Part shown: one piece after another, positions 1 to 15,854 of the stretch | How positions within the stretch are numbered: the first letter of the stretch is position 1 | Layout: every line of letters starts with the position of its first letter | DNA from: Algorimicrobium echini | Lineage (GTDB): Bacteria; Bacteroidota; Bacteroidia; Flavobacteriales; Flavobacteriaceae | Assembly: GCF_900115185.1 (NCBI RefSeq) | Contig: NZ_FOVN01000001.1 | Span: 1-64,000 of the forward strand | Direction: 5' to 3' | Length of the DNA: 64,000 nt | Program-made: the position numbers and the translations under genes | The notes under the pieces: model-generated | The model's database searches: none | What the model was told of the DNA's origin: nothing | Seen by the model: only the letters and a program-made list of their open reading frames with translations

Positions 1-65
1 TATTTAGGCAACTTTACATATGGCTAGTGATTATTTGCTAAAACATCTGATTAACCGAAGGTTGC

Positions 66-143
66 AAAAGTGGTTTTTTGACCAATCTGGACGCAATGAG
101 TAATAAGCAAGACGCAATGGATACGTGGAAAAAAACCACTTTT
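66..143. repeat. Inverted repeat with internal 9-bp direct repeat
   Basis: Arms of 14 bp (66-79 and 130-143, core AAAAGTGGTTTTTT) are perfect inverted copies separated by 50 nt. The loop holds two copies of GACGCAATG (90-98 and 111-119). No gene can be supported in bases 1-327. This hairpin and the imperfect palindrome at 195-317 are the only structures seen there. It may be the tail of a cassette boundary that starts outside the window. Confidence 0.6.
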
Positions 144-194
144 ACAAAGGCCTGTCCCGAATGGTATTGGGCAGGTATATACGCAGTATAACCT

Positions 195-317
195 CGGCTA
201 TAAAAAATAGCTTTTATCTTGCTTTACCATTTTTTTTACTACTTTTAATCTGAAACTTTAAACCGAAACATAAGTGTCCTTTAGTGCGCTACTTTCCATA
301 GCCGCCGGACGTTGGCA
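195..317 (+). repeat. Cassette-boundary palindrome A
   Basis: An imperfect palindrome just ahead of the lipoprotein gene. The left arm CGGCTAT-(6 nt)-TAGC at 195-211 pairs with GCTA-(6 nt)-ATAGCCG at 288-304. The 3' end reads GACGTTGGCATTAA, close to GACCGTTGCCATTAA at the end of element D (5508-5521). Architecture resembles an attC site (imperfect stem, GTT at the 3' end), but the canonical GTTRRRY core is not present. Confidence 0.5.
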
Positions 318-327
318 TTAATTTTAA

Positions 328-1062
328 ATGAAGAACATTTTAACATACATTTTATTAATTTTCATATTTAGTTGTTCTTCTACAAAACAGAAAGAAAAAC
401 TAATTGGAAATTGGTATTCAAATAGTGATGACAACTATGGTTTTATAGAATTCCAATTTTATAATGACTCGCTTATTAGTTTTGATAAACTTGGGAAAAG
501 TTTCGCAGAATGGGAAGTTAGTAAAGACAAAATTCAACTAACAGACATAAACGGATTCACTAATAAAAAGCAATTGACTTATTCTTATGAATTAGATAAA
601 TCAAACGGAATTCTTAAACTTAAAATTTTAGGTGACACTATAATACAACTCCCTAAACTAATTAAAGCTAAAAACACTTATGACTTTTTCCAAAAAAATG
701 TCGGTATTGTAATTGATTTACCGACAAAAGAAAATGAATTAACTCAAATAGGTTTCCCTGACAATTTGACTTTTAATATTTATGCAGGGTTTTCGGATAA
801 CAGTTTAATTGTAAAAACCGACTTTTCATCTGACTTAAAAAACTTGAAAAAAGAAGTAACCGATTTTAAAGAAAACTCACGAGAAGAATTAAAACCATTC
901 TTAAGATTTAACTTAATTGCTGACAAAAGCATAACTAAATCTCAAATGGACTCAATTAAAGACCAACTTAAAAGAACTTCAATTGAACGGATTTTCAGAA
1001 CTTATAAAAATAAACAAACCGATTATGAAAATAATTTAAATTGGTTTGGACAAAAAGAATAA
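328..1062 (+). CDS. Lipoprotein with ExbD-like C-terminal region
   Basis: A 244-residue predicted lipoprotein. The hydrophobic N-terminus ends in FIFSC, putting the lipidated cysteine at residue 16. Residues 25-100 read as a small beta-rich lipocalin-like stretch (LIGNWY at the start). From about residue 127 the pattern resembles the periplasmic domain of ExbD: IVIDLP at 127-132, FNLIADK at 194-200 and IERIFRTY at 219-226. ExbD normally has an N-terminal membrane anchor and works with ExbB; here the anchor would be a lipid and no ExbB lies nearby. The ExbD link is my pattern reading, not a confirmed domain hit. It is the first cargo gene of the palindrome-separated array and is bounded by elements A and B. 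Confidence 0.75.
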   Translation: MKNILTYILLIFIFSCSSTKQKEKLIGNWYSNSDDNYGFIEFQFYNDSLISFDKLGKSFAEWEVSKDKIQLTDINGFTNKKQLTYSYELDKSNGILKLKILGDTIIQLPKLIKAKNTYDFFQKNVGIVIDLPTKENELTQIGFPDNLTFNIYAGFSDNSLIVKTDFSSDLKNLKKEVTDFKENSREELKPFLRFNLIADKSITKSQMDSIKDQLKRTSIERIFRTYKNKQTDYENNLNWFGQKE

Positions 1063-1070
1063 AAACTAAT

Positions 1071-1208
1071 GCCAACAACGTGTATAATTAATGGCTAGTT
1101 CTCGCCTACTTACGAAAATCCTCGCGGATTTTCTATTAGGTTTTTATTTGCTAAATTAGTTGCTGAAACACGCCACAAATCATACACAAAACCGTTGTAA
1201 GTAATGCC
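1071..1208 (+). repeat. Cassette-boundary palindrome B
   Basis: Starts GCCAACAACG at 1071 and ends in CGTTGT at 1193-1198. The left arm from TGTATAATT pairs with the right arm, whose reverse complement reads TGTATGATT and continues TGTGGC, about 15 of 20 positions. The right arm carries about five extra bases (GTTTT) after the outer ACAACG. The centre is a tight hairpin GAAAATCC-TCGC-GGATTTTC at 1114-1133. It is clearly homologous to element C at 2042-2169. Confidence 0.65.
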
Positions 1209-1226
1209 GAAAACCCACGAATTTGA

Positions 1227-2021
1227 ATGAACAAAACGATATTTGAAATTACCAAAATGGATTGTCCTTCAGAGGAAAATCTAATCCGAATGAAATTGGA
1301 CGGAATTTCAAGTATTGCCAATTTGGACTTTGACATTCCGAATCGAAAATTGACCGTTTTTCACAGCGGAGAAATTGACCAAATCGAAAAGTCAGTTATA
1401 GAACTGAATTTAGGCGGAAAGAAAATCTCAACGGAACAAACCGACCAAACGGAATTTAAAGAAAATGAAAATCAGAAAAAGCTACTTTGGTCTGTACTTG
1501 CAATCAATTTTGCTTTTTTCATAATTGAAATGACAACAGGAATTATCTCAAAATCTATGGGACTTGTTGCTGATAGTTTGGATATGCTTGCAGACAGTTT
1601 TGTTTACGGAATTAGTTTGCTTGCGGTTGGTGGAACATTAATAAAGAAAAAACGGATTGCCAAACTTGCTGGATATTTTCAAATAACACTTGCGATTATT
1701 GGATTTGTAGAAGTTTTAAGGAGATTTTTCGGAGACGAGAAACTTCCCGACTTTTCAACAATGATTATCGTCTCGATTTTTGCACTTATAGCTAACGGAA
1801 TTTGTCTCTACATTTTGCAAAAGTCAAAGAGTAAAGACGAGGCACATATGAAAGCAAGTATGATTCTCACTTCGAATGACGTGATTTTCAATTTAGGAGT
1901 AATAATTGCTGGAATTTTAGTAAATTGGTTGAGTTCGAGTAAACCTGATTTGATTATTGGAACAATCGTTTTTGCGTTGGTAATTCAAGGTGCATTCCGA
2001 ATACTGAAATTGAGCAAGTAA
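1227..2021 (+). CDS. HMA-domain cation transporter of the CDF type
   Basis: A 264-residue membrane protein predicted to export divalent metal ions. Residues 4-68 look like a ferredoxin-fold heavy-metal-associated domain, with MDCPSEE at 11-17 in place of the usual MxCxxC loop, so only one cysteine (C13) remains. Residues 86-262 hold about six membrane segments. DSLDMLAD at 116-123 matches the helix-2 metal site of cation diffusion facilitators, and SNDVIFN near 216-222 fits the second metal-binding helix. There is no long histidine-rich loop and no cytoplasmic C-terminal domain. It is a single-gene cargo between palindromes B and C. Metal specificity cannot be read from the sequence. Confidence 0.8.
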   Translation: MNKTIFEITKMDCPSEENLIRMKLDGISSIANLDFDIPNRKLTVFHSGEIDQIEKSVIELNLGGKKISTEQTDQTEFKENENQKKLLWSVLAINFAFFIIEMTTGIISKSMGLVADSLDMLADSFVYGISLLAVGGTLIKKKRIAKLAGYFQITLAIIGFVEVLRRFFGDEKLPDFSTMIIVSIFALIANGICLYILQKSKSKDEAHMKASMILTSNDVIFNLGVIIAGILVNWLSSSKPDLIIGTIVFALVIQGAFRILKLSK

Positions 2022-2041
2022 GCGAAAAAGCACTACTTACA

Positions 2042-2169
2042 ACAACGTGTATAACTAATTGCTTGTTCTGTGTGTACTCGGAAAATCCTGCGGATTTTCC
2101 TAATGGTTAGTTTCTTTTTTGCTAACTTAGTTCTCGCCAACGCAACTAGCCATAACACGAACACGTTGT
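2042..2169 (+). repeat. Cassette-boundary palindrome C
   Basis: Ends are ACAACG (2042-2047) and CGTTGT (2164-2169). Its first 28 bases match element B with about five changes (ACAACGTGTATAACTAATT here). The centre is GGAAAATCC-TGC-GGATTTTCC at 2080-2100. As in B, the right arm has a short extra insertion after the outer core, so folding the repeat leaves unpaired bases on one side only. Bases 2022-2348 hold no gene: they contain this element, the hairpin at 2192-2267 and the controller promoter region. Confidence 0.65.
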
Positions 2170-2191
2170 GTTTCATACTACCAGCCGCATA

Positions 2192-2267
2192 TTTTAGCAC
2201 TTTTGGTTTTTGCCAACGCTAATTTCCAACGCTCTAAAAACCAAAAGAGCTAAAATTTCCCAACGCT
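2192..2267. repeat. Hairpin with CCAACGCT repeats upstream of RM genes
   Basis: Arms at 2192-2211 and 2236-2255 are 20 bp long with one mismatch (core TTTTAGC-CTTTTGGTTTTT). CCAACGCT occurs three times, at 2213-2220, 2226-2233 and 2260-2267. The same 8-mer borders another hairpin on the far side of the restriction-modification genes (5273-5359). Confidence 0.6.
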
Positions 2268-2318
2268 CGAAATAATCCGAATTAAAAGTTGGAAATCCAA
2301 AATGTTTTTATAAATTTG

Positions 2319-2331
2319 GACAATATTTGTC
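2319..2331 (+). promoter_or_regulatory. Candidate controller operator and promoter
   Basis: GACAATATTTGTC is a near-perfect palindrome 17 nt ahead of the HTH gene. The AATATTTG inside it is one base off the Bacteroidota -7 box TAnnTTTG. A site overlapping the promoter of the restriction-modification genes fits autoregulation by the HTH protein, as in C-protein-controlled RM systems. This is inference from position and symmetry. Confidence 0.4.
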
Positions 2332-2348
2332 TAAAACAATTTTGACCA

Positions 2349-2657
2349 ATGAAAACATTAGGCGACACTTTAAAATGTGCCAGAGAGGAAAAAGAATTGA
2401 TACTGCGAAAAGTTGCGGCTGAAGTAGATATTGACCAATCTCTCATTAGCAAATTTGAGAAAAACGAAAGAAAACCGACAATGGAACAAATCGTAAGACT
2501 TGCAAAGTTTTACGGACTTCCCGAAAATGAACTTATCATAAATTGGTATTCGGAAAAAATTGCTGACGAACTAAAATACACGGAATCGACTTCCGAAATA
2601 TTAAAAGTAGCAGAAGAAAAAATTAACTATTATAAAGCTCAAGAAAATGGAAAATAA
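2349..2657 (+). CDS. XRE-family HTH regulator of the RM system
   Basis: A 102-residue protein with a helix-turn-helix of the Cro/C1 (XRE) type over residues 8-62. The segment SLISKFEKNERKPTMEQIVRLA is the typical recognition helix and following loop, given here only as a motif label at residues 31-52. The C-terminal 35 residues are charged and probably helical. The stop codon overlaps the start of the cytosine methyltransferase by 11 nt, so the two are translationally coupled. By analogy with controller (C) proteins it probably times expression of methyltransferase and nuclease; an accessory specificity role is not excluded. Confidence 0.8.
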   Translation: MKTLGDTLKCAREEKELILRKVAAEVDIDQSLISKFEKNERKPTMEQIVRLAKFYGLPENELIINWYSEKIADELKYTESTSEILKVAEEKINYYKAQENGK

Positions 2658-3894
2658 GAAAATGAAAGTTGCAGAATTATTTGCAGGAGTTGGAGGATTT
2701 CGTCTTGGACTTGAAAAAAGCAATTACGAAGTTGTTTGGAGTAACCAATGGGAACCGTCAACCAAAATGCAACACGCATCAATGGTTTACGAAGCTCGAT
2801 TTGGAAAAGAAAACCATTCCAATGAAGATATAAATGAAGTAGTAACGAGAAATGTTGAGGAAATTCCAGATCACGATTTATTGGTTGGTGGTTTTCCTTG
2901 TCAAGATTATTCTGTTGCAACTACATTACATAATTCAAAAGGCTTAAAAGGTAAAAAAGGTGTTCTTTGGTGGTCAATTCATAAAATTTTAGAGAACAAA
3001 AAGAACAAACCAAAATATCTGTTTTTAGAAAACGTTGATCGACTTTTAAAATCGCCAGCAAAACAAAGAGGTCGTGATTTTGCAGTTATGTTACAAAGTT
3101 TAAACGACTTGGGATACGCAGTAGAATGGCGAGTTATAAATGCAGCTGAATATGGAATGCCACAAAGAAGACGTAGAGTTTTCTTTATTGGCTATCATAA
3201 ATCAACAGACGTTTACAAAAGACTTCAAAAGTCAAATAAAATTGATTGGCTCACAGAAGAAGGAACGATTGCAAGTGCTTTTCCAGTAGCAAAAACGAAT
3301 TCATTACAAAAAGTAGAACTAAAAGGAGATTTGGTAGAAATAACCAATAATTTCAATAAAAACGGAAAACTATCGCCTTTTCAAAATACAGGTTTGCTCG
3401 TAAAAGGTAAAGTGTACACAACTAAAACAGAACCAAATTATGATGGAAAGAAAACTGTTTTAGCAGATGTTTTACAAAATGGAGAAGTTACATCTGAATT
3501 TTTCATTGACGAAAAAGATAAAGACAAATGGGAATATTTGAAAGGTGCAAAAACAATTGAAAGAAAATCACCAGATGGTTTTGTTTACAAATATTCAGAA
3601 GGTGGAATGATTTACCCAGATGCTTTAGACAATGCTTCAAGAACTATTATAACAGGAGAAGGTGGAAAATCACCTTCAAGATTTAAACACGTAATTGTTT
3701 CTGATAGAGGTTTAAGAAGATTGACACCAATTGAGTTAGAAAGACTAAATATGTTTCCAGATAATCATACCAAATTGGAAGGAATTACAGACACAAAGCG
3801 AGCGTTCTTTATGGGAAACGCTTTAGTTGTTGGCGTAATTGAAAAAATTGGAGAAGAACTTTACAAACAGATAAACCAATTTGAATATGCTTGA
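2647..3894 (+). CDS. DNA cytosine-5 methyltransferase, M.Sau3AI-like
   Basis: Transfers a methyl group from S-adenosylmethionine to C5 of cytosine. All key motifs are present in order in 415 residues: motif I FAGVGG at 12-17, motif IV with catalytic GGFPCQ (C85), motif VI ENV at 128-130, motif VIII QRRRR at 173-177 and motif X GNALVVG near 390. Stretches such as VVWSNQWEP, KGVLWW and RGRDFAVML are what I recall from M.Sau3AI, which modifies GATC, and the downstream nuclease supports the same site. The protein could also start at the ATG at 2662 (MKVAELF). The gene overlaps the HTH gene upstream and the nuclease downstream, so this is one tight operon. Confidence 0.92.
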   Translation: MENKKMKVAELFAGVGGFRLGLEKSNYEVVWSNQWEPSTKMQHASMVYEARFGKENHSNEDINEVVTRNVEEIPDHDLLVGGFPCQDYSVATTLHNSKGLKGKKGVLWWSIHKILENKKNKPKYLFLENVDRLLKSPAKQRGRDFAVMLQSLNDLGYAVEWRVINAAEYGMPQRRRRVFFIGYHKSTDVYKRLQKSNKIDWLTEEGTIASAFPVAKTNSLQKVELKGDLVEITNNFNKNGKLSPFQNTGLLVKGKVYTTKTEPNYDGKKTVLADVLQNGEVTSEFFIDEKDKDKWEYLKGAKTIERKSPDGFVYKYSEGGMIYPDALDNASRTIITGEGGKSPSRFKHVIVSDRGLRRLTPIELERLNMFPDNHTKLEGITDTKRAFFMGNALVVGVIEKIGEELYKQINQFEYA

Positions 3895-5272
3895 TATAAC
3901 TTCAGCTGATTCAATTATTGAATTTGCAAAACAACTTAAAAACCAAACTTTAAGACAAGCCTGCGGTTCAGAAATAGAAAAACACGGTTACAAAGGAAAA
4001 GGAAATTTTGGTCAAATATTAGAGAAATTCTATTTTGGCTACGAACCAAATTCTGATGCAGAACCTGATTTTTTGGAAGCAGGTCTTGAATTAAAAACAA
4101 GCCCTTTAAAGACTCTCAAAAACGGAGAATATCGTTCAAAAGAAAGGCTCGTCTTAAACATAATCAACTATTTAGAAGTTCATAAAGAAGAATTTGAAAC
4201 AAGTTCGTTTTGCAAGAAAAATGCACATTTACTTTTGGTATTTTATCTTCACGATAGAGATTTAGATTTACTTGATTACTTAATAAAATTAGTTGACGGT
4301 TGGCAATATCCCAATGAAGATTTAAAAATCATTAAACAAGATTGGGAATTAATAAATCAAAAAATTAAAGATGGAAAAGCTCACGAATTATCAGAAGGAG
4401 ACACATTCTATCTTGGAGCTTGTACAAAAGGTTCAACTGCTCTAAAATCGTTCAGAGATCAACCATTTAATAAAGAACAAGCAAAACAAAGAGCATATTC
4501 TTTAAAACAAGGATATGTAAATCACATAATTGCAAACATTGCTCAAGAAGAAACTGCTGTTTATGGAAAAATAATTGAACGACCTGAAATTTTAGACAAA
4601 GTACGATCTATTGAGGAAATAGTAATTTTAAAATTTCATCCATTTTATGGCAAATCAGCAGAACAAATAGAGAAAGAATTGGGTTTAGAATTAAATCAAA
4701 ATGCCAAAAGCTATTTTGCAAATCTTACAAATGCAATTCTTGGACTTCAACTCGGTCAAAAAATTGAGGAATTTGAAAAAGCCGATATTCAAGTAAAAAC
4801 TATCCGACTTAAAGAAAATGATTTACCAAAAGAAGACATTTCGTTTCCAACATTTGAATATCAAGAACTTTTAGAAACAGATTGGGAAGATTCAGATTTT
4901 AAGAACATTTTGGAAAGCAAATTTTTCTTTGTGTTTTATCAATTTGAGGGAGAAAATTTGATATTAAGAAAAGTGAAATTTTGGAATATGCCCTACTCTG
5001 ATATTGCTGAAGCCAAAAATGTTTGGCAAGAAATGGTAAAGACAGTTGCAAGTGGAGAAATCGTAAAAGAAGTAACTGAAAAAGGTGTAAGAAAAACTTA
5101 TTTTCCAAAGAAAACTGAAAACAGGATAAGTCACGTTAGACCACACGCAAGAAATGCAGCAGATACTTATGAATTACCTGTCGCAGATAAATTAACAGGA
5201 TTGACTGAATATACAAAGCATTGTTTTTGGTTAAACGCAAGTTATGTGAAAGACGAAATATATCTGAAATAA
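3887..5272 (+). CDS. Type II restriction endonuclease, Sau3AI-like
   Basis: A 461-residue nuclease expected to cut at GATC. The N-terminal MutH/Sau3AI-fold half has the catalytic series with D61 and E68-L-K70 (ExK), followed by SKERLVLNIINY at about 84-95. Middle stretches DWELINQKI and KAHELSEGDT, and the C-terminal HVRPH and FWLNASYVK, match the second domain of Sau3AI as I know it. I chose the ATG at 3887; a TTG two codons earlier (3881) is possible. Either start lies inside the end of the methyltransferase gene, giving an 8-14 nt overlap that would keep expression coupled. The gene looks intact. Confidence 0.9.
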   Translation: MLDITSADSIIEFAKQLKNQTLRQACGSEIEKHGYKGKGNFGQILEKFYFGYEPNSDAEPDFLEAGLELKTSPLKTLKNGEYRSKERLVLNIINYLEVHKEEFETSSFCKKNAHLLLVFYLHDRDLDLLDYLIKLVDGWQYPNEDLKIIKQDWELINQKIKDGKAHELSEGDTFYLGACTKGSTALKSFRDQPFNKEQAKQRAYSLKQGYVNHIIANIAQEETAVYGKIIERPEILDKVRSIEEIVILKFHPFYGKSAEQIEKELGLELNQNAKSYFANLTNAILGLQLGQKIEEFEKADIQVKTIRLKENDLPKEDISFPTFEYQELLETDWEDSDFKNILESKFFFVFYQFEGENLILRKVKFWNMPYSDIAEAKNVWQEMVKTVASGEIVKEVTEKGVRKTYFPKKTENRISHVRPHARNAADTYELPVADKLTGLTEYTKHCFWLNASYVKDEIYLK

Positions 5273-5359
5273 GCCAACGCTAAAAGCCATACACATTTGC
5301 AATTCGCTACAGCTACTGCACAGCCAAAAATTGCAAAAGAGTATGTCTTTGCCAACGCT
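5273..5359. repeat. Hairpin bordered by GCCAACGCT, downstream of RM genes
   Basis: Arms CATACACATTTGCAATT (5288-5304) and AATTGCAAAAGAGTATG (5329-5345) pair at 15 of 17 positions. GCCAACGCT flanks the hairpin on both sides (5273-5281 and 5351-5359). It mirrors the arrangement at 2192-2267, so the RM operon is bracketed by two structured repeats with the same border word. Confidence 0.6.
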
Positions 5360-5387
5360 AGCAAGTTTTCGGAAAAAAGTACGAAAA

Positions 5388-5517
5388 CACAACAATGTAT
5401 AAAAATAATAGCGGTTTAATCGCTAAAACGAAAGTAAATAAATATAAAAAAGGTCTGTGTTTAATCGAAAAGTTATTGCGTGTAAATCCGCTACTATTCT
5501 TATACTAGACCGTTGCC
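5388..5517 (+). repeat. Cassette-boundary palindrome D
   Basis: The left arm GTATAAAAATAATAGCGG (5397-5414) and the right arm CCGCTACTATTCTTATAC (5488-5505) are inverted copies with two mismatches in 18. The outer ends read ACAACA and CGTTGCC. The 3' end closely follows that of element A. The IS3-family element begins nine bases further on. Confidence 0.6.
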
Positions 5518-5564
5518 ATTAATACTGACCCGTCCTGAAATAAGGCTACATAATTTTAAACATT

Positions 5565-5936
5565 ATGTATAGAAATGACAAAGTAATTAGACGTTACAGT
5601 GAACCTTTTAAATTAAAAATTTTAGCCGAGCTTACCATCGGAAAACACACAAAGAGCGAACTTTGTAAGCTCTACTCTATTGCACCTACAACAGTGAATG
5701 TGTGGATTAAAGAGTACAATCGTAAAGACTTAATGAACACCAGAGTAAAAGTGGAAACAAAAGACGAAATATCAAGAATTAAAGCACTTCAAAAAGAGAT
5801 TGAACAGCTTAAAAAACTCTTGCTAAAAAAGGATTTAGATGCTATGGTACTAGATTCATATTTAGAAGTAGCAGCACAAGACCTTGGCTATAAATCTGTC
5901 ACAGAATTAAAAAAAAAGTTAAGAACAGAGCGCTGA
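5565..5936 (+). CDS. IS3-family transposase OrfA
   Basis: A 123-residue DNA-binding protein of the transposase-8 (HTH_Tnp_1) type. Residues 8-50 contain the HTH (RRYSEPFKLKILAEL, then SIAPTTVNVWIKEY). Residues 60-90 form a leucine-zipper-like coiled coil (IKALQKEIEQLKKLLLKK) typical of IS3 OrfA multimerisation. Near its 3' end a run of nine A followed by G (5909-5918) is a slippery site where the ribosome can slip back one base into orfB. Confidence 0.9.
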   Translation: MYRNDKVIRRYSEPFKLKILAELTIGKHTKSELCKLYSIAPTTVNVWIKEYNRKDLMNTRVKVETKDEISRIKALQKEIEQLKKLLLKKDLDAMVLDSYLEVAAQDLGYKSVTELKKKLRTER

Positions 5937-6787
5937 TTATAGCTAAAGAGACATCTACGGGATCTGCTTCTTTAACTACTATAACCCATTGTTTTGGGCT
6001 TAAACGTAATGCATATTATAAATACAAAGCTAGAGCTGATAACCGTTTAAGACTAGAACAACAGATTCTAAACATCGTTAGAAAAAGACGCAAATCCCTT
6101 CCTAGAGAAGGTGTTCGTAAACTTATTAAATCTTTAAATGTAGATTTTACTAAAGCCAATATTAAAATCGGTAGAGACACTCTTTTCAATGTGCTTAGAA
6201 AACACCAAATGCTGACACTTAGAAAGAAAACCAGTGCTAGAACTACGAACTCTTATCATCGTTTTTATAAATATAACAACATCATAAAAGACGTAGAAAT
6301 CAATAGAGTTAACCAAGTTTGGGTTAGTGACATAACTTATATTAGAACCCTAAAAGGCTTTTGTTATCTGGCTTTAATAACAGACATGCACTCCAGGAAA
6401 ATAGTTGGTTATGATATTAGTGATAGCTTGGAATTAAAAGGATGTGTGAGAGCGCTTAATAAGGCAATTTATCAAGCTAAAAGCATTAAACAACTTATTC
6501 ATCATTCAGACAGAGGAATACAGTATTGTAGCAATGTATACACACAAATACTCAAAAGAAAAAAGATAGATATTAGTATGACTGAAGAAAATCATTGTTA
6601 CGAGAATGCCATGGCTGAACGTGTAAACGGCATCCTAAAAGATGAGTTTTATCCCGATCAGACCTTTGATAACGTGGCACATGCCAAAAGAGCTGCAAAA
6701 AATGCAATTAATTTATACAACGAAGTAAGATTACATTTATCTTTAGACTATAAAACACCTAATATGGTATATAAATTATCAGCTTAA
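5909..6787 (+). CDS. IS3-family transposase OrfB (frameshifted, DDE)
   Basis: The -1 frame is open without a stop from the A9 run at 5909 to 6787, about 292 residues. The translation includes an HTH_21-like stretch (KSLPREGVRKLIKSL) and an integrase-core (rve) domain. The catalytic triad is visible: D in WVSDITY, D in HHSDRGIQY and E in ENAMAERVNG, 35 residues apart for the last pair as in DDE(35)E. OrfB is normally made as an OrfAB fusion of about 407 residues here. A GTG at 6191 is an internal codon, not a likely start, because the upstream frame is conserved. Confidence 0.88.
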   Translation, partial: KKKVKNRALIIAKETSTGSASLTTITHCFGLKRNAYYKYKARADNRLRLEQQILNIVRKRRKSLPREGVRKLIKSLNVDFTKANIKIGRDTLFNVLRKHQMLTLRKKTSARTTNSYHRFYKYNNIIKDVEINRVNQVWVSDITYIRTLKGFCYLALITDMHSRKIVGYDISDSLELKGCVRALNKAIYQAKSIKQLIHHSDRGIQYCSNVYTQILKRKKIDISMTEENHCYENAMAERVNGILKDEFYPDQTFDNVAHAKRAAKNAINLYNEVRLHLSLDYKTPNMVYKLSA

Positions 6788-12730: not shown

Positions 12731-13930
12731 ATGGAATTATTACATACAGATACAAAAAATAACGTTTTAAATTCAATGATTACCATTATTGATAGAGAAC
12801 GGGATAACATCATTAAAGCTAATAAACAAGATTTAGAAGCCTTTAATAAAGACGATCAAGCCTTATACGACCGACTAGTGGTTAACAACGCTAAAGTGGA
12901 TGGCATGATTCAGGCTATTAAAGAAGTACGCGAACAAGACGACCCTGTTGGTGCTACTATTTCAGATATGACTTTGGATACAGGGTTACAAATTACCAAT
13001 AAAACAGCGCCATTTGGAACGATTATGATTATTTATGAATCCAGACCAGATGTTACCATTGAAGCAGCTGTTTTAGCGTTTAAAGCCAACAATAAAATTT
13101 TACTAAAAGGCGGAAAAGAAGCCATTAATAGTAATCTGATTTTAGAAAAATGCTGGCATGAAGCGTTAGAAGAAAATGGTTTACCTAAAGATTGGATTAA
13201 ACTATTACATTTAAAGCGTGAAGAAACACAGGAATTTTTAAGAAATCCAACGGAGAAAATAGATTTAATTGTACCTCGTGGTGGTGAACGCTTAATTAAG
13301 TTTGTAAAAGACCACGCTACCTGTGCCGTTTTAATTTCAGGACGTGGCAACAACTTTTTATATGTTTCTAAAGATGCGGATTGGGAAAAAGCCGTAAAAG
13401 TGATTATAAATGCAAAAACTGATAAAATTTCAGGATGCAATGCATTAGATAAAGTATTAATTGATAAAAATATTTCTAATTACGAAGCGAAAGTAAGAGA
13501 ACTCCAAAAAACATTAGAGCATGTTGGTGTATCCTTAGTTGTGGATAAAAAAATTGGACAAATTCTAACCAAGGAAACCCAAATACCAAACGAAGATACC
13601 TGGTACGAAGAATTCCTAGCCATGAAATTATTAGTAGCCGAAGTGGATGGATTAGATGAAGCTATAGAAACCATTAATAAATACTCTGGAGGACATTCAT
13701 CCACCATAATGACAGAAAACAAAAACGAAGCAGCCTCTTTCATGCAAGAAATAGACAGCGCTGCGGTTTACCACAATGCTTCTACTCGATTTACCGATGG
13801 AGGACAAATGGGTGTTGGCGCCGAATTAGCCATAAGCACGGACAAACTGCATCACCGCGGACCATTAGGTTTAAAACAATTGGTAACTAATAAATATTAT
13901 GTATTTGGCGATGGCCATGTACGCGTTTAA
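12731..13930 (+). CDS. proA: Gamma-glutamyl phosphate reductase
   Basis: An aldehyde-dehydrogenase-fold enzyme that reduces gamma-glutamyl phosphate with NADPH to glutamate semialdehyde, which cyclises to pyrroline-5-carboxylate. The 399 residues match the family. Visible signatures are IYESRPDVTIEAA near 100, VPRGGERLIKFV near 179, the catalytic cysteine in KISGCNALDK near 235 and the C-terminal HRGPLGLKQL. It starts 11 nt after proB and ends the operon, with a strong terminator following. Confidence 0.95.
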   Translation: MELLHTDTKNNVLNSMITIIDRERDNIIKANKQDLEAFNKDDQALYDRLVVNNAKVDGMIQAIKEVREQDDPVGATISDMTLDTGLQITNKTAPFGTIMIIYESRPDVTIEAAVLAFKANNKILLKGGKEAINSNLILEKCWHEALEENGLPKDWIKLLHLKREETQEFLRNPTEKIDLIVPRGGERLIKFVKDHATCAVLISGRGNNFLYVSKDADWEKAVKVIINAKTDKISGCNALDKVLIDKNISNYEAKVRELQKTLEHVGVSLVVDKKIGQILTKETQIPNEDTWYEEFLAMKLLVAEVDGLDEAIETINKYSGGHSSTIMTENKNEAASFMQEIDSAAVYHNASTRFTDGGQMGVGAELAISTDKLHHRGPLGLKQLVTNKYYVFGDGHVRV

Positions 13931-13951
13931 ACAATAATTTAAACATGTTAC

Positions 13952-13985
13952 AAACGGCATTGGTTTTAAAACTGATGCCGTTTTT
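13952..13985 (+). terminator. Terminator of the proCBA operon
   Basis: The stem AAACGGCAT/ATGCCGTTTTT encloses a loop that can itself pair (GGTTTTAAAAC). A T-run ends the structure 55 nt after the proA stop. Confidence 0.85.
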
Positions 13986-14004
13986 GTTATGCTAGATTTA
14001 AGGG

Positions 14005-14172
14005 TTTATATCCTTGTAACCTCAAAAGGCAAGGAAACAAGAAACCTTTGGTTGCAGCCGTAAAAAAATTATCTTTACAGGATAACGGTAACTCAAAACT
14101 TACTATATCCTGACATATTTACGGGATATAAGTAATAAAGGTTACTATATAACGAGTTGTACGCAATTTGAC
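14005..14172 (+). repeat. Cassette-boundary palindrome G
   Basis: The left arm TTTATATCCTTGTAACCT (14005-14022) is an imperfect inverted match to AAGGTTACTATATAACG (14138-14154). The 3' end ACTATATAACGAGTTGTACGC (see 14144-14164) recurs, slightly changed, just before rpoD at 14942-14967. Between the two copies lies one small lipoprotein gene. A smaller hairpin, ATATCC to GGATAT, lies inside (14105-14130). This unit resembles those in the 1-9,130 array. Confidence 0.5.
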
Positions 14173-14178
14173 CAACCT

Positions 14179-14634
14179 ATGAAAAACATAACTTTAATTG
14201 TAATTATTTTGATTTTAGGAACATCCTGTCAAAACCAAAAAATTGCGGAATTAAATAACCAAATAACTGAATTAGAAGACCTGAATACTGAACTGACTGA
14301 TTCTCTAAATCGATATGATTATCTAAAAGTTATCTCATCTGAATTAATCGGAATACCTGACAATACTAATCTGGTTCCAAACCAACCGAATAAATTCATT
14401 TTCTTGCTTCCTACCATTCAAAAATTCCCTGAATATAATGTTTACCGAATAACCAAAAACGGAAATGAAGAAGTTAGAGAATTGCTATATGAAAATTATA
14501 AAGAATCTCGATTTGAATTTAATTTTATCCCTAAAAATGAAAACGACAAATCCTTTGAACTTCTAGCGGAATTTGATTTAGATAGTATAAAAGTTCAAAT
14601 CCCTGGAATAATTGATATGACATTAACCGAATAA
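14179..14634 (+). CDS. Small coiled-coil lipoprotein
   Basis: A 151-residue protein of unknown function. The signal peptide ends in LGTSC, giving a lipidated cysteine at residue 17. Residues 21-45 (IAELNNQITELEDLNTELTD region) have a heptad pattern suggesting a short coiled coil. The remaining 100 residues are mixed and unrecognised. It is the only gene in the cassette-like unit between proA and rpoD, on the same strand as both. Codon use and style match the small lipoprotein at 328-1062. Confidence 0.7.
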   Translation: MKNITLIVIILILGTSCQNQKIAELNNQITELEDLNTELTDSLNRYDYLKVISSELIGIPDNTNLVPNQPNKFIFLLPTIQKFPEYNVYRITKNGNEEVRELLYENYKESRFEFNFIPKNENDKSFELLAEFDLDSIKVQIPGIIDMTLTE

Positions 14635-14675
14635 AAACACTATGCACAACATCCGTATAAACCAAATTAAAAACA

Positions 14676-14788
14676 CTTAACCCATTAATTTTTAGAATAC
14701 ATAATATTCCTATTTTTCTTTTCAAATGAAAAGAACTTTCCGAGGTTCCGGGCTCATGCGTTAAGGATGGCAATGGCATCCTTTTTTT
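14676..14788 (+). ncRNA. Candidate small structured RNA ending in a terminator
   Basis: Bases 14635-14990 hold no gene. Within them, an unusually GC-rich block (CCGAGGTTCCGGGCTC, 14740-14755) sits between CTTAAC (14676-14681) and GTTAAG (14760-14765), which can close a long stem. An 8-bp hairpin TCTTTTCA/TGAAAAGA lies at 14717-14734. The stretch ends in a clean terminator AAGGATG-(7 nt)-CATCCTT plus a T-run (14763-14788). This could be a small RNA; a 6S-like RNA is one possibility but I cannot confirm it. Downstream, TTTTTACGT/ACGTAAAAA and CTTTTTACGC/GCGTAAAAAG form further hairpins. Confidence 0.3.
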
Positions 14789-14940
14789 ACGTCTAAACGT
14801 AAAAAGAGATATAATGGACAGCCTGACTTTTTACGCCAAATCCCTAATTTAATGTTGGAAACGGCATTTTTTAGCGTAAAAAGGAACGCCAAAAAAAATA
14901 ATAGCACTTTTTTGTAACAAAAACTGCTTTGCTTACGTAT

Positions 14941-14971
14941 AACTATATAGAACACGTTGTTCGCACAATTT
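14941..14971 (+). repeat. Repeat of cassette end, just upstream of rpoD
   Basis: ACTATATAGAACACGTTGT followed by TCGCACAATTT matches ACTATATAACGAGTTGT plus ACGCAATTT at 14144-14168. The reverse-complement partner of this end is GCACAACATCCGTATA at 14644-14659, right after the lipoprotein gene. The pair would be the boundary palindrome that closes the cassette-like unit. It lies within 50 nt of the rpoD start. Confidence 0.45.
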
Positions 14972-14990
14972 AATTAGAGAAAGAACGTAC

Positions 14991-15854
14991 ATGAGACAAC
15001 TTAAAATTACCAAGCAGGTTACCAATAGAGAAACTGCTTCGTTAGACAAATATCTTCAAGAAATAGGAAAAGTTGACTTAATTACCGCAGACGAGGAAGT
15101 AGAATTAGCACAGCGCATAAAAGCGGGTGATCAGGTGGCTTTAGAAAAGTTAACCAAAGCTAATTTACGTTTCGTTGTTTCGGTAGCGAAGCAATACCAA
15201 AACCAAGGTTTAACCTTACCAGATTTAATTAATGAAGGGAATTTAGGCCTTATTAAAGCGGCGCAACGTTTTGATGAAACGCGTGGTTTTAAATTTATTT
15301 CGTATGCTGTTTGGTGGATTCGTCAATCTATCTTACAAGCTTTAGCGGAACAATCACGTATTGTGCGTTTACCGTTAAACAAAATTGGATCTATTAACAA
15401 GATTAATAAAACCTTTGCTTTCTTAGAACAAGCACATGAGCGTCCACCAAGTGCCGAGGAAATTGCCAAAGAATTAGACATGACGATTAACGATGTTAAG
15501 GAGTCTATGAAAAATTCAGGACGTCACGTAAGTATGGATGCACCTTTAGTTGAAGGTGAAGACAGTAACTTATATGATGTATTAAATTCTGGTGAATCGC
15601 CAAATCCAGACCGCGATTTATTACACGAATCCTTACGTACAGAAATTGAACGTGCTTTGGAAACCTTAACACCTCGTGAAGCGGACGTAATTCGTTTATA
15701 CTTTGGTTTAGGAAACCAACATCCAATGACTTTAGAAGAAATTGGTGAAACCTTCGACTTAACACGCGAGCGTGTTAGACAAATTAAAGAAAAAGCTATT
15801 CGTAGATTAAAACATACCTCTAGAAGTAAAATATTGAAAACTTATCTAGGATAA
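14991..15854 (+). CDS. rpoD: Primary RNA polymerase sigma factor (sigma-70)
   Basis: The housekeeping sigma factor that directs RNA polymerase to the Bacteroidota -33/-7 promoters seen through this window. At 287 residues it lacks most of region 1.1 and the non-conserved region, as expected for this phylum. Region 1.2 begins near [11 protein letters not shown] (17-27); region 2 has [18 protein letters not shown] and [15 protein letters not shown] (78-120); region 4 has [16 protein letters not shown] and [18 protein letters not shown] (222-280). It stands alone, followed by a long inverted repeat and two terminators. No clear TAnnTTTG box was found upstream; TACGTATA at 14934-14941 is a weak candidate. 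Confidence 0.95.

Follow-up and report, generated by a model that had tools for sequence, protein, structure and literature searches.

Layout of the proA–rpoD locus

The window analysed here comprises the first 64,000 nucleotides of contig NZ_FOVN01000001.1 of Algorimicrobium echini. Its genome (G000, 3,314,721 bases) was compared with those of five congeners (G001–G005), giving six genomes of the genus. Read along the + strand, the locus consists of proA, the end of a recombinase gene, a single small gene and rpoD. The distance from proA to rpoD is 1.06 kb in the window, 3.4 kb in G002, 4.2 kb in G003 and 40.6 kb in G001; in G004 and G005, the two genes lie on separate contigs.

The proA gene (12731–13930) is the left chromosomal neighbour of the array and has 92–96% identical orthologues in four congeners; the G005 copy is in two pieces (90 and 93%). 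The spacer after proA (13931–14002) corresponds to the proA–recombinase spacer of G001, with 87.7% DNA identity over 13924–14002. It is followed by a scar of about 42 nt (14003–14044), recognized as a jump between two blastn matches, at the place where G001 has about 1.24 kb including 366 of the 388 recombinase codons. The last 22 codons and the stop are preserved in frame (14045–14113) and share 86% amino acid identity with G001 residues 367–388. An attI-like site, ATATAACGAGTT, occupies 14147–14158. The cassette joins within its GTT, taken as between G and TT (14156/14157). The putative solitary gene cassette extends from 14157 to 14650, and the congeners diverge from the window at both of its ends; the usual cassette start is GTTnnnnnnAATTTGA. 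The cassette gene (14179–14634) encodes a 151-residue protein that resembles a small lipoprotein, as judged by eye from its N-terminus. The right cassette end and the 5′ half of an attC-like site (..GCAC-AACATCCGTATAAACC) lie at 14636–14663, and the 3′ half of the site is missing.

The remaining sequence belongs to a conserved chromosomal block adjoining rpoD. A Flavo-1 RNA (RF01705) at 14753–14832 scores 51.9 bits and is a member above the gathering score of 42. It lies on the rpoD side, stays as the array changes and is not part of the array. The RNA is found just upstream of rpoD in five of the six genus genomes (all except G005; the loci include L004, L006, L007 and L008) and in none of 14 tested loci outside the genus, suggesting that its adjacency to rpoD is a genus-specific link. 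G000, G001 and G003 have the stretch from about 14760 to rpoD in common. Two elements, TTTTTGTAACA and TACGTATAAC (14909–14943), would constitute the rpoD promoter; compared by eye, they recur, exactly or in close versions, ahead of rpoD in the majority of 24 loci from beyond the genus. The end of the −10 region and a genus-specific rpoD 5′ UTR occupy 14942–14971, and rpoD itself 14991–15854 (all on the + strand). The 5′ UTR was also considered as the 3′ half of the last attC-like site. This assignment is unsupported because the block from Flavo-1 to rpoD is shared with G001, whose adjacent upstream sequence differs; a covariance model of the sites, described below, has no match there, and a very long degenerate site would still be compatible.

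An initial annotation of this DNA had noted two similar stretches on either side of the small gene. Both are present, ACTATATAACGAGTTGTACGCAATT at 14144–14168 and ACTATATAGAACACGTTGTTCGCACAATTT at 14942–14971. The gapped pattern ACTATATA-N(2-10)-GTTGT-NN-GCA has exactly two matches in the 3.3-Mb genome, both at this locus, and a reversed-pattern control has none. The gapless pattern ACTATATA-N5-GTTGT has no match because the spacing differs between the two copies. A further pattern, GCACAACANCCGTATA, has eight genome matches at up to two mismatches, compared with four for a control pattern, and was set aside.

The two stretches had been explained as the result of a single gene-plus-palindrome unit inserted beside an existing end, with ACTATATA..GTTGT..CGCA duplicated on both sides. 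The explanation accords with the two copies being the only ones in 3.3 Mb, and also with the gene content of the relatives, since no full-length homologue of the gene is found in any of the five congeners. A single insertion is nevertheless most unlikely. The right copy starts inside the second promoter element, TACGTATAAC, and is present in all six genus genomes regardless of the sequence farther upstream, including those without the cassette, point changes aside; none of the 24 rpoD loci from beyond the genus was seen to have it. The supposed duplicated end is the end of the probable rpoD promoter together with the 5′ UTR, and the resemblance between the copies does not stem from a duplicated target. 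In addition, a recombinase remnant precedes the left site, and in three congeners the similarity does not continue past ACTATATA/GTT. The inserted stretch does not reach 14971, as had been assumed, but ends near 14650. An inverted match to the repeat had also been placed after the gene. The sequence in question, GCACAACATCCGTATA, is found at 14644–14659, but it is the inverse of either copy only over approximately GTTGT..GC. It is the sole match in the window at up to two mismatches, against an expectation of 0.22. At least one match also arises in 20 of 100 shuffles, so that it is not significant alone.

A recombinase remnant and the array of a congener

The left copy is a putative attI-like recombination site behind a lost tyrosine recombinase gene. 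In G001, a gene for a 388-residue tyrosine recombinase lies directly after proA, and ATATAACGAGTT behind it is identical to window 14147–14158. Window 14045–14174 aligns with the end of the G001 recombinase gene and its attI-like site at 90.8% identity. The window has probably lost about 1.24 kb, replaced by 42 nt. The left site is kept in G001, G002 and G004, yet the letters after GTT differ (AGCCACAAG, GGCAGTAAG and GTAAAACAT) because a different first cassette starts there. A clean insertion edge, as predicted for the relatives, is borne out to the extent that G001, G002 and G004 diverge at or within 3 nt after ATATAACNAGTT, but the flank is not pristine chromosome. G004 departs from the window three shared letters after ...AGTT, and G002 was compared with the window at this site by eye.

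The same arrangement extends to other genomes. A contig scan with an alignment of 30 recombinases gave at least 569 loci, of which the best 80 were analysed; the nearest among these 80 are from a Flavobacteriaceae isolate (81%) and two Algibacter (77 and 73%). The motif ATATAACGAGTT occurs exactly behind 25 of the 30 recombinase genes and with one mismatch behind four more, and is missing behind one (L042). In its general form, ATATAACN[AC]GTT, the motif has 60 occurrences on both strands of 2.2 Mb and in 59 of the 80 loci it follows the recombinase at a distance of no more than 300 nt; the other 21 loci show no motif there, some for want of sequence. An attI-like site thus adjoins the recombinase gene, with the array joined to it, and the window has the relic form.

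In G001, proA, the recombinase gene and rpoD all lie on one strand, and the 40.6 kb between proA and rpoD contain 38 palindromic junction sites that resemble attC. The sites were located by sequence patterns, as local alignment of their arms missed most. Measured from AAC to GTT, 32 sites are 118–123 nt and six are 178–187 nt long. The longest ATG ORF runs in the sense of the array in 36 of the 38 cassettes. Its stop codon lies 8–20 nt before the right-hand AAC in 19 of them, and in seven cassettes it is shorter than 60 residues. The whole G001 genome contains 56 covariance-model sites, and those listed include a second cluster near 0.81–0.84 Mb. At the proA–rpoD locus itself, G001, G002, G004 and G005 each have at least one model match and G003 has none. 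At this orthologous position, the genomes of the genus form a series that ranges from a complete platform to a relic.

The window lies at the relic end of this series. The covariance model, run with filters off, finds no complete attC-like site in 13900–15100 (best 6.8 bits, E 0.44), and the cassette unit is therefore stranded. The cassette's own ends match in 4 of 8 nt, while 6–7 are usual in intact arrays; with this partial match and a half attC-like site that has no model match, its status as a cassette rests on context. The stretch after the AAC of the half site is shared with G003, where it is preceded by another gene with matched ends, as seen by eye.

The cassette gene is rare. Its protein has no Pfam match above the cut-off and no NCBIfam match. 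The gene is found in four of 299 family genomes, its own included, plus a weak 31% match at another locus of G005. Two of four homologues elsewhere (L002 and L112) lie directly between two matches to the covariance model. The model matches nearest to a third (L114) are 1.0 and 1.3 kb off, and a fourth (L113) has no model match nearby.

We therefore regard the locus, with a probability of about 0.88, as the wreck of an integron-like platform between proA and rpoD, comprising a recombinase remnant, an attI-like site, one cassette and half of an attC-like site. Its assignment as a putative relic of a flavobacterial integron-like system is made with high confidence. The proposal of a site-specific insertion beside an existing end survives in part, in that the cassette is joined to a pre-existing end. 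However, with a recombinase remnant on one side and half a recombination site on the other, the unit is what remains of an array and not one fresh insertion.

attC-like sites and cassette ends

The fold of the attC-like sites was evaluated in an alignment of 36 sites (32 from G001, three from the window and one from G004; 34 distinct). Double changes are found in 10 of the 19 stem pairs, and the covariation score exceeds those of all 500 shuffles and of all slid versions of the structure, although the tested structure had been traced by eye on a single row of the alignment, which favours it over the slid versions. Of the paired cells, 95.6% can pair when written as the bottom strand and 85.1% as the top strand. 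Two A.C mismatches that are nearly constant in the top strand (30 and 34 of 34) become G.T wobbles in the bottom strand. Sites within one array share descent, so neither the covariation nor the strand counts represent independent events. Computed stabilities were compared for 162 of 163 pattern sites, those passing the arm score, from 14 sets of loci. The bottom-strand fold is the stabler one in 144 of the 162, with a mean difference of −2.08 kcal/mol compared with −0.59 in shuffles. The excess of A.C over G.T (519 versus 106) is partly due to composition, as shuffles give 626 versus 253.

A covariance model (R1) was built on the bottom strand. Of 60 related genomes, 41 contain sites that it detects: 35 of the 37 from the family, and six of the 23 from other families in the order. 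The two site-free family genomes also have no recombinase match at E 1e-40. At this threshold, which includes more distant recombinases, 100 of 149 family genomes have a match.

The window contains an array of its own in addition to the relic. Window 1–5600, at the start of the contig, is a cassette array with four attC-like sites on the − strand, the bottom strand being the one modelled. Three of them are rows of the model alignment, at 1074–1196 (129.6 bits), 2041–2167 (88.3 bits) and 5391–5514 (92.8 bits). The fourth, at 190–313, is not in the alignment and scores 47.9 bits (E 1.2e-7). The cargo includes a homologue of a G001 cation-efflux gene and a type II restriction-modification pair at 2647–5272. 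Behind the last site are two ORFs (5565–6787), which we take to be an IS3-type transposase pair from their resemblance to one. The genome also encodes two further whole recombinases of the same type, at the ends of contigs C7 (L068) and C4 (L069). The C7 gene is followed by one cassette and an attC-like site, and the C4 gene by a cassette-like start only, with no model match within 6 kb.

Each cassette opens with a stretch inverse to its own right end. The own ends of the G001 cassettes match in 6.29 of 8 nt on average, compared with 2.80 for permuted pairs, and none of 10,000 permutations reaches 6.29. Thirty-six of the 38 cassettes match in 6 or 7 nt, and the remaining two match in 2 and 0. 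By comparison, the two arms at one G001 junction, which are the ends of neighbouring cassettes, match in 3.08 of 8 nt. The pairing is reproduced in 75 cassettes from 10 loci and, by record title, nine genera, with a mean of 6.48 against 2.60 for permuted pairs; in no locus did more than 43 of 5,000 permutations reach the observed value. These 10 loci, two of them from Algibacter, were chosen for their many sites from the 49 with model matches, leaving out four pairs more than 2.5 kb apart and one cut-off match. Three cassettes of the contig-start array match in 7, 7 and 6 nt. The arrangement is that expected of excisable circles carrying the site across their junction, as in integrons.

This content bears on the view that the space between proA and rpoD is a general island hot spot, for instance for integrative elements at rpoD, with an incidental look of cassettes. 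The range of spacer lengths in the genus, 1.06 to 40.6 kb, would suit a hot spot. What fills the spacer, however, is cassettes with paired ends and attC-like sites, and inspection of the G001 ORF lists brought up no genes for conjugation or of phages; 10 of the G001 cassette proteins were searched against Pfam. We consider a hot spot of this kind exceedingly unlikely.

Several cassettes appear to have moved. The G001 array contains two pairs of near-identical cassettes (98.8 and 96.8%), in which identity ends 9–27 nt outside the G of the border GTTs. The G001 cation-efflux cassette recurs at 96.3% DNA identity in G140, a genome of another genus whose recombinase is 47% identical, and the match ends 4–6 nt after the G of the next GTT. 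The same cassette is found at 89% identity in the contig-start array of the window and also at 89% in L172, where the match begins exactly at the attI GTT. A ParE-bearing cassette has a counterpart with 98% identity in a Tenacibaculum record (L194). Vertical descent would not readily preserve such identity next to recombinases that have diverged so far, and recent transfer of single cassettes would be the simplest reading. The cargo seen so far consists of restriction-modification, Thoeris-like TIR, toxin and transport genes. In one G001 cassette (L030:10917-12471), two TIR-type genes match Thoeris ThsB models, and defence-like genes thus sit in these arrays.

Cassettes could also be moved by homologous recombination between abundant palindromic repeats of the REP or MITE kind, with the recombinase as a bystander. 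The interiors of the sites are indeed alike within an array, and one genome, G024, has 34 model sites and no recombinase match at E 1e-40, as a cluster of orphan sites would also show. The placement of the sites argues otherwise. In the 80 recombinase loci, every one of the 206 model matches is located 3′ of the recombinase, all on the same strand, as read by eye. Matches are present in 49 of the 80 loci, and 28 of the other 31 have less than 1.4 kb of sequence behind the recombinase. Another 33 sources give 159 matches, of which one is on the wrong strand (L078, a partial match of 30.7 bits). Moreover, the attI motif stands behind most recombinase genes, cassette-specific pairing of ends is not expected of plain exchange, and the cassette shared with L172 starts there precisely at the attI GTT. 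Homologous recombination is thus a very unlikely explanation. Contigs end less than 1.4 kb past the recombinase in 36 of the 80 loci (L121–L200), a pattern that repeat arrays would produce; such arrays may be under-represented in draft genomes.

In the mechanism that we propose, the recombinase would join circular cassettes at attI. It would recognize the attC-like site as a bottom-strand hairpin formed by the arms adjoining AAC and GTT together with 6–7 cassette-specific nt, and repeated captures would stack the cassettes in one direction. In the window, a loss of about 1.2 kb would have removed the recombinase, and a further loss would have left one cassette that could no longer leave by its own site.

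The recombinase and comparison with integrons

Tyrosine recombinases share the catalytic set R, K, H-xx-R, H and Y. These residues are invariant at the corresponding places in all 30 recombinases. The predicted structure of the recombinase (pLDDT 85.1, pTM 0.62) places about 95 residues N-terminal to the core. Structurally, the core comes closest to XerA (4a8e; Z 22.8, 258 residues aligned, rmsd 10.1), and the integron integrase IntI4 ranks third (Z 19.8, 252 residues aligned, rmsd 4.1). The best PDB match by sequence is also 4a8e (E 1.5e-41). Residues 1–90 searched alone gave no listed structural match, a result that is not informative on the novelty of the N-terminal part.

The anatomy of the arrays is that of integrons, and an ordinary IntI integron, or a CALIN, overlooked by surveys has to be weighed. 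The G001 recombinase matches TIGR02249, the curated integron integrase model, with 203.1 bits, and narrowly misses the cut-off of NF040815 (216.4 versus 220), named 'site-specific tyrosine recombinase/integron integrase'; NCBI gives this name to some plasmid relatives. The TIGR02249 score is nevertheless below the cut-off of 265. IntI is defined by an additional domain (PMC9668308). When aligned with IntI4 (2a3v), the G001 recombinase matches in two pieces, with 19 residues opposite 62 of IntI4.

In a tree of 46 proteins, the 30 recombinases form one branch (support 100/99) and eight IntI of other Bacteroidota another (100/100), although the tree program flags long branches separating IntI from XerC/D. 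The C7 and C4 recombinases of the window's own genome fall beside the 30 and outside IntI. The tree omits two IntI rows (wrong ORF), four scan rows (two of odd length, and L141 and L142), three tyrosine recombinases of the own genome (one badly extracted and two distant) and one misextracted row with a branch of 10.

The sites and the hosts differ as well. The consensus core boxes of IntI attC sites are RYYYAAC and GTTRRRY. In G001, RYYYAAC is found in three and GTTRRRY in four of the 38 sites, and the shorter YAAC in 37. IntI above the cut-off is present in 46 of 148 Bacteroidota genomes, and none of these 46 is from the Flavobacteriaceae, of which at least 15 genomes were among the 148. An overlooked IntI integron is accordingly highly unlikely. 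The recombinase appears to stand outside the IntI integrons, as it lacks the IntI domain, scores below the TIGR02249 cut-off and falls outside the IntI clade, and its sites depart from the core boxes.

Judged from these genome comparisons, the Flavobacteriaceae very likely possess an integron-like system without IntI that would work like an integron, a strong case in our view. It is also probable that this is the family's own integron system. A XerA-like clade with an added N-terminal part would capture cassettes by single-strand (bottom-strand) recombination at attI, the cassette-specific arms of the hairpin sites extending beyond the crossover, and the clade would have arisen separately from IntI or split off before IntI gained its insertion. 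If so, arrays with hairpin sites biased to the bottom strand beside a recombinase without the insertion would make it testable whether single-strand recombination needs the IntI insertion; the alternative, that integron-like capture evolved twice, becomes testable too. A large and little-charted pool of cassettes would also be opened in a big family of aquatic bacteria.

Integron surveys would miss such a system if, as we believe, the integrase and attC models used in them are based on IntI integrons. In excerpts of the IntegronFinder 2.0 report, the Bacteroidetes previously had nothing beyond In0, to which a complete integron in Salinibacter is then added (PMC9024848). Other reviews and surveys, in the portions available, name Bacteroidota or Bacteroidetes/Chlorobi and not Flavobacteriaceae (PMC8618304, PMC9668308, PMC2426708). 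In an excerpt of a tyrosine recombinase classification, the insertion is described as not fully conserved in the integron-like group, yet essential for integron function (PMC8138268). Among titles and the beginnings of abstracts, in literature exclusive of preprints and most subscription journals, no description of such arrays in Flavobacteriaceae was found.

The flavobacterial system shares with integrons, whether IntI-bearing, sedentary chromosomal or CALINs, a recombinase at one end and an adjoining attI. The cassettes are compact and run one way, their junction sites are palindromic, they join within GTT, and their own ends are matched. A stabler computed bottom-strand fold and relic forms without the recombinase are further likenesses. 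The differences from IntI integrons lie in each component. The flavobacterial recombinase has no IntI additional domain and about 95 extra N-terminal residues. Its sites consist of YAAC/GTTR plus a cassette-specific arm of 6–7 nt, and are mostly not RYYYAAC/GTTRRRY. Its attI is ATATAACN[AC]GTT. In class 1 integrons, the integrase gene is read away from the array, whereas the flavobacterial recombinase gene is read towards it. The hosts are Flavobacteriaceae, for which the consulted portions of the surveys report no integrons. The simple tyrosine recombinases of the XerA/XerC type (4a8e, 5hxy; NF040815) provide the best PDB sequence match and the best structural match to the core. The flavobacterial enzyme differs from them in having an extra N-terminal part, and cassette arrays instead of a dif site.
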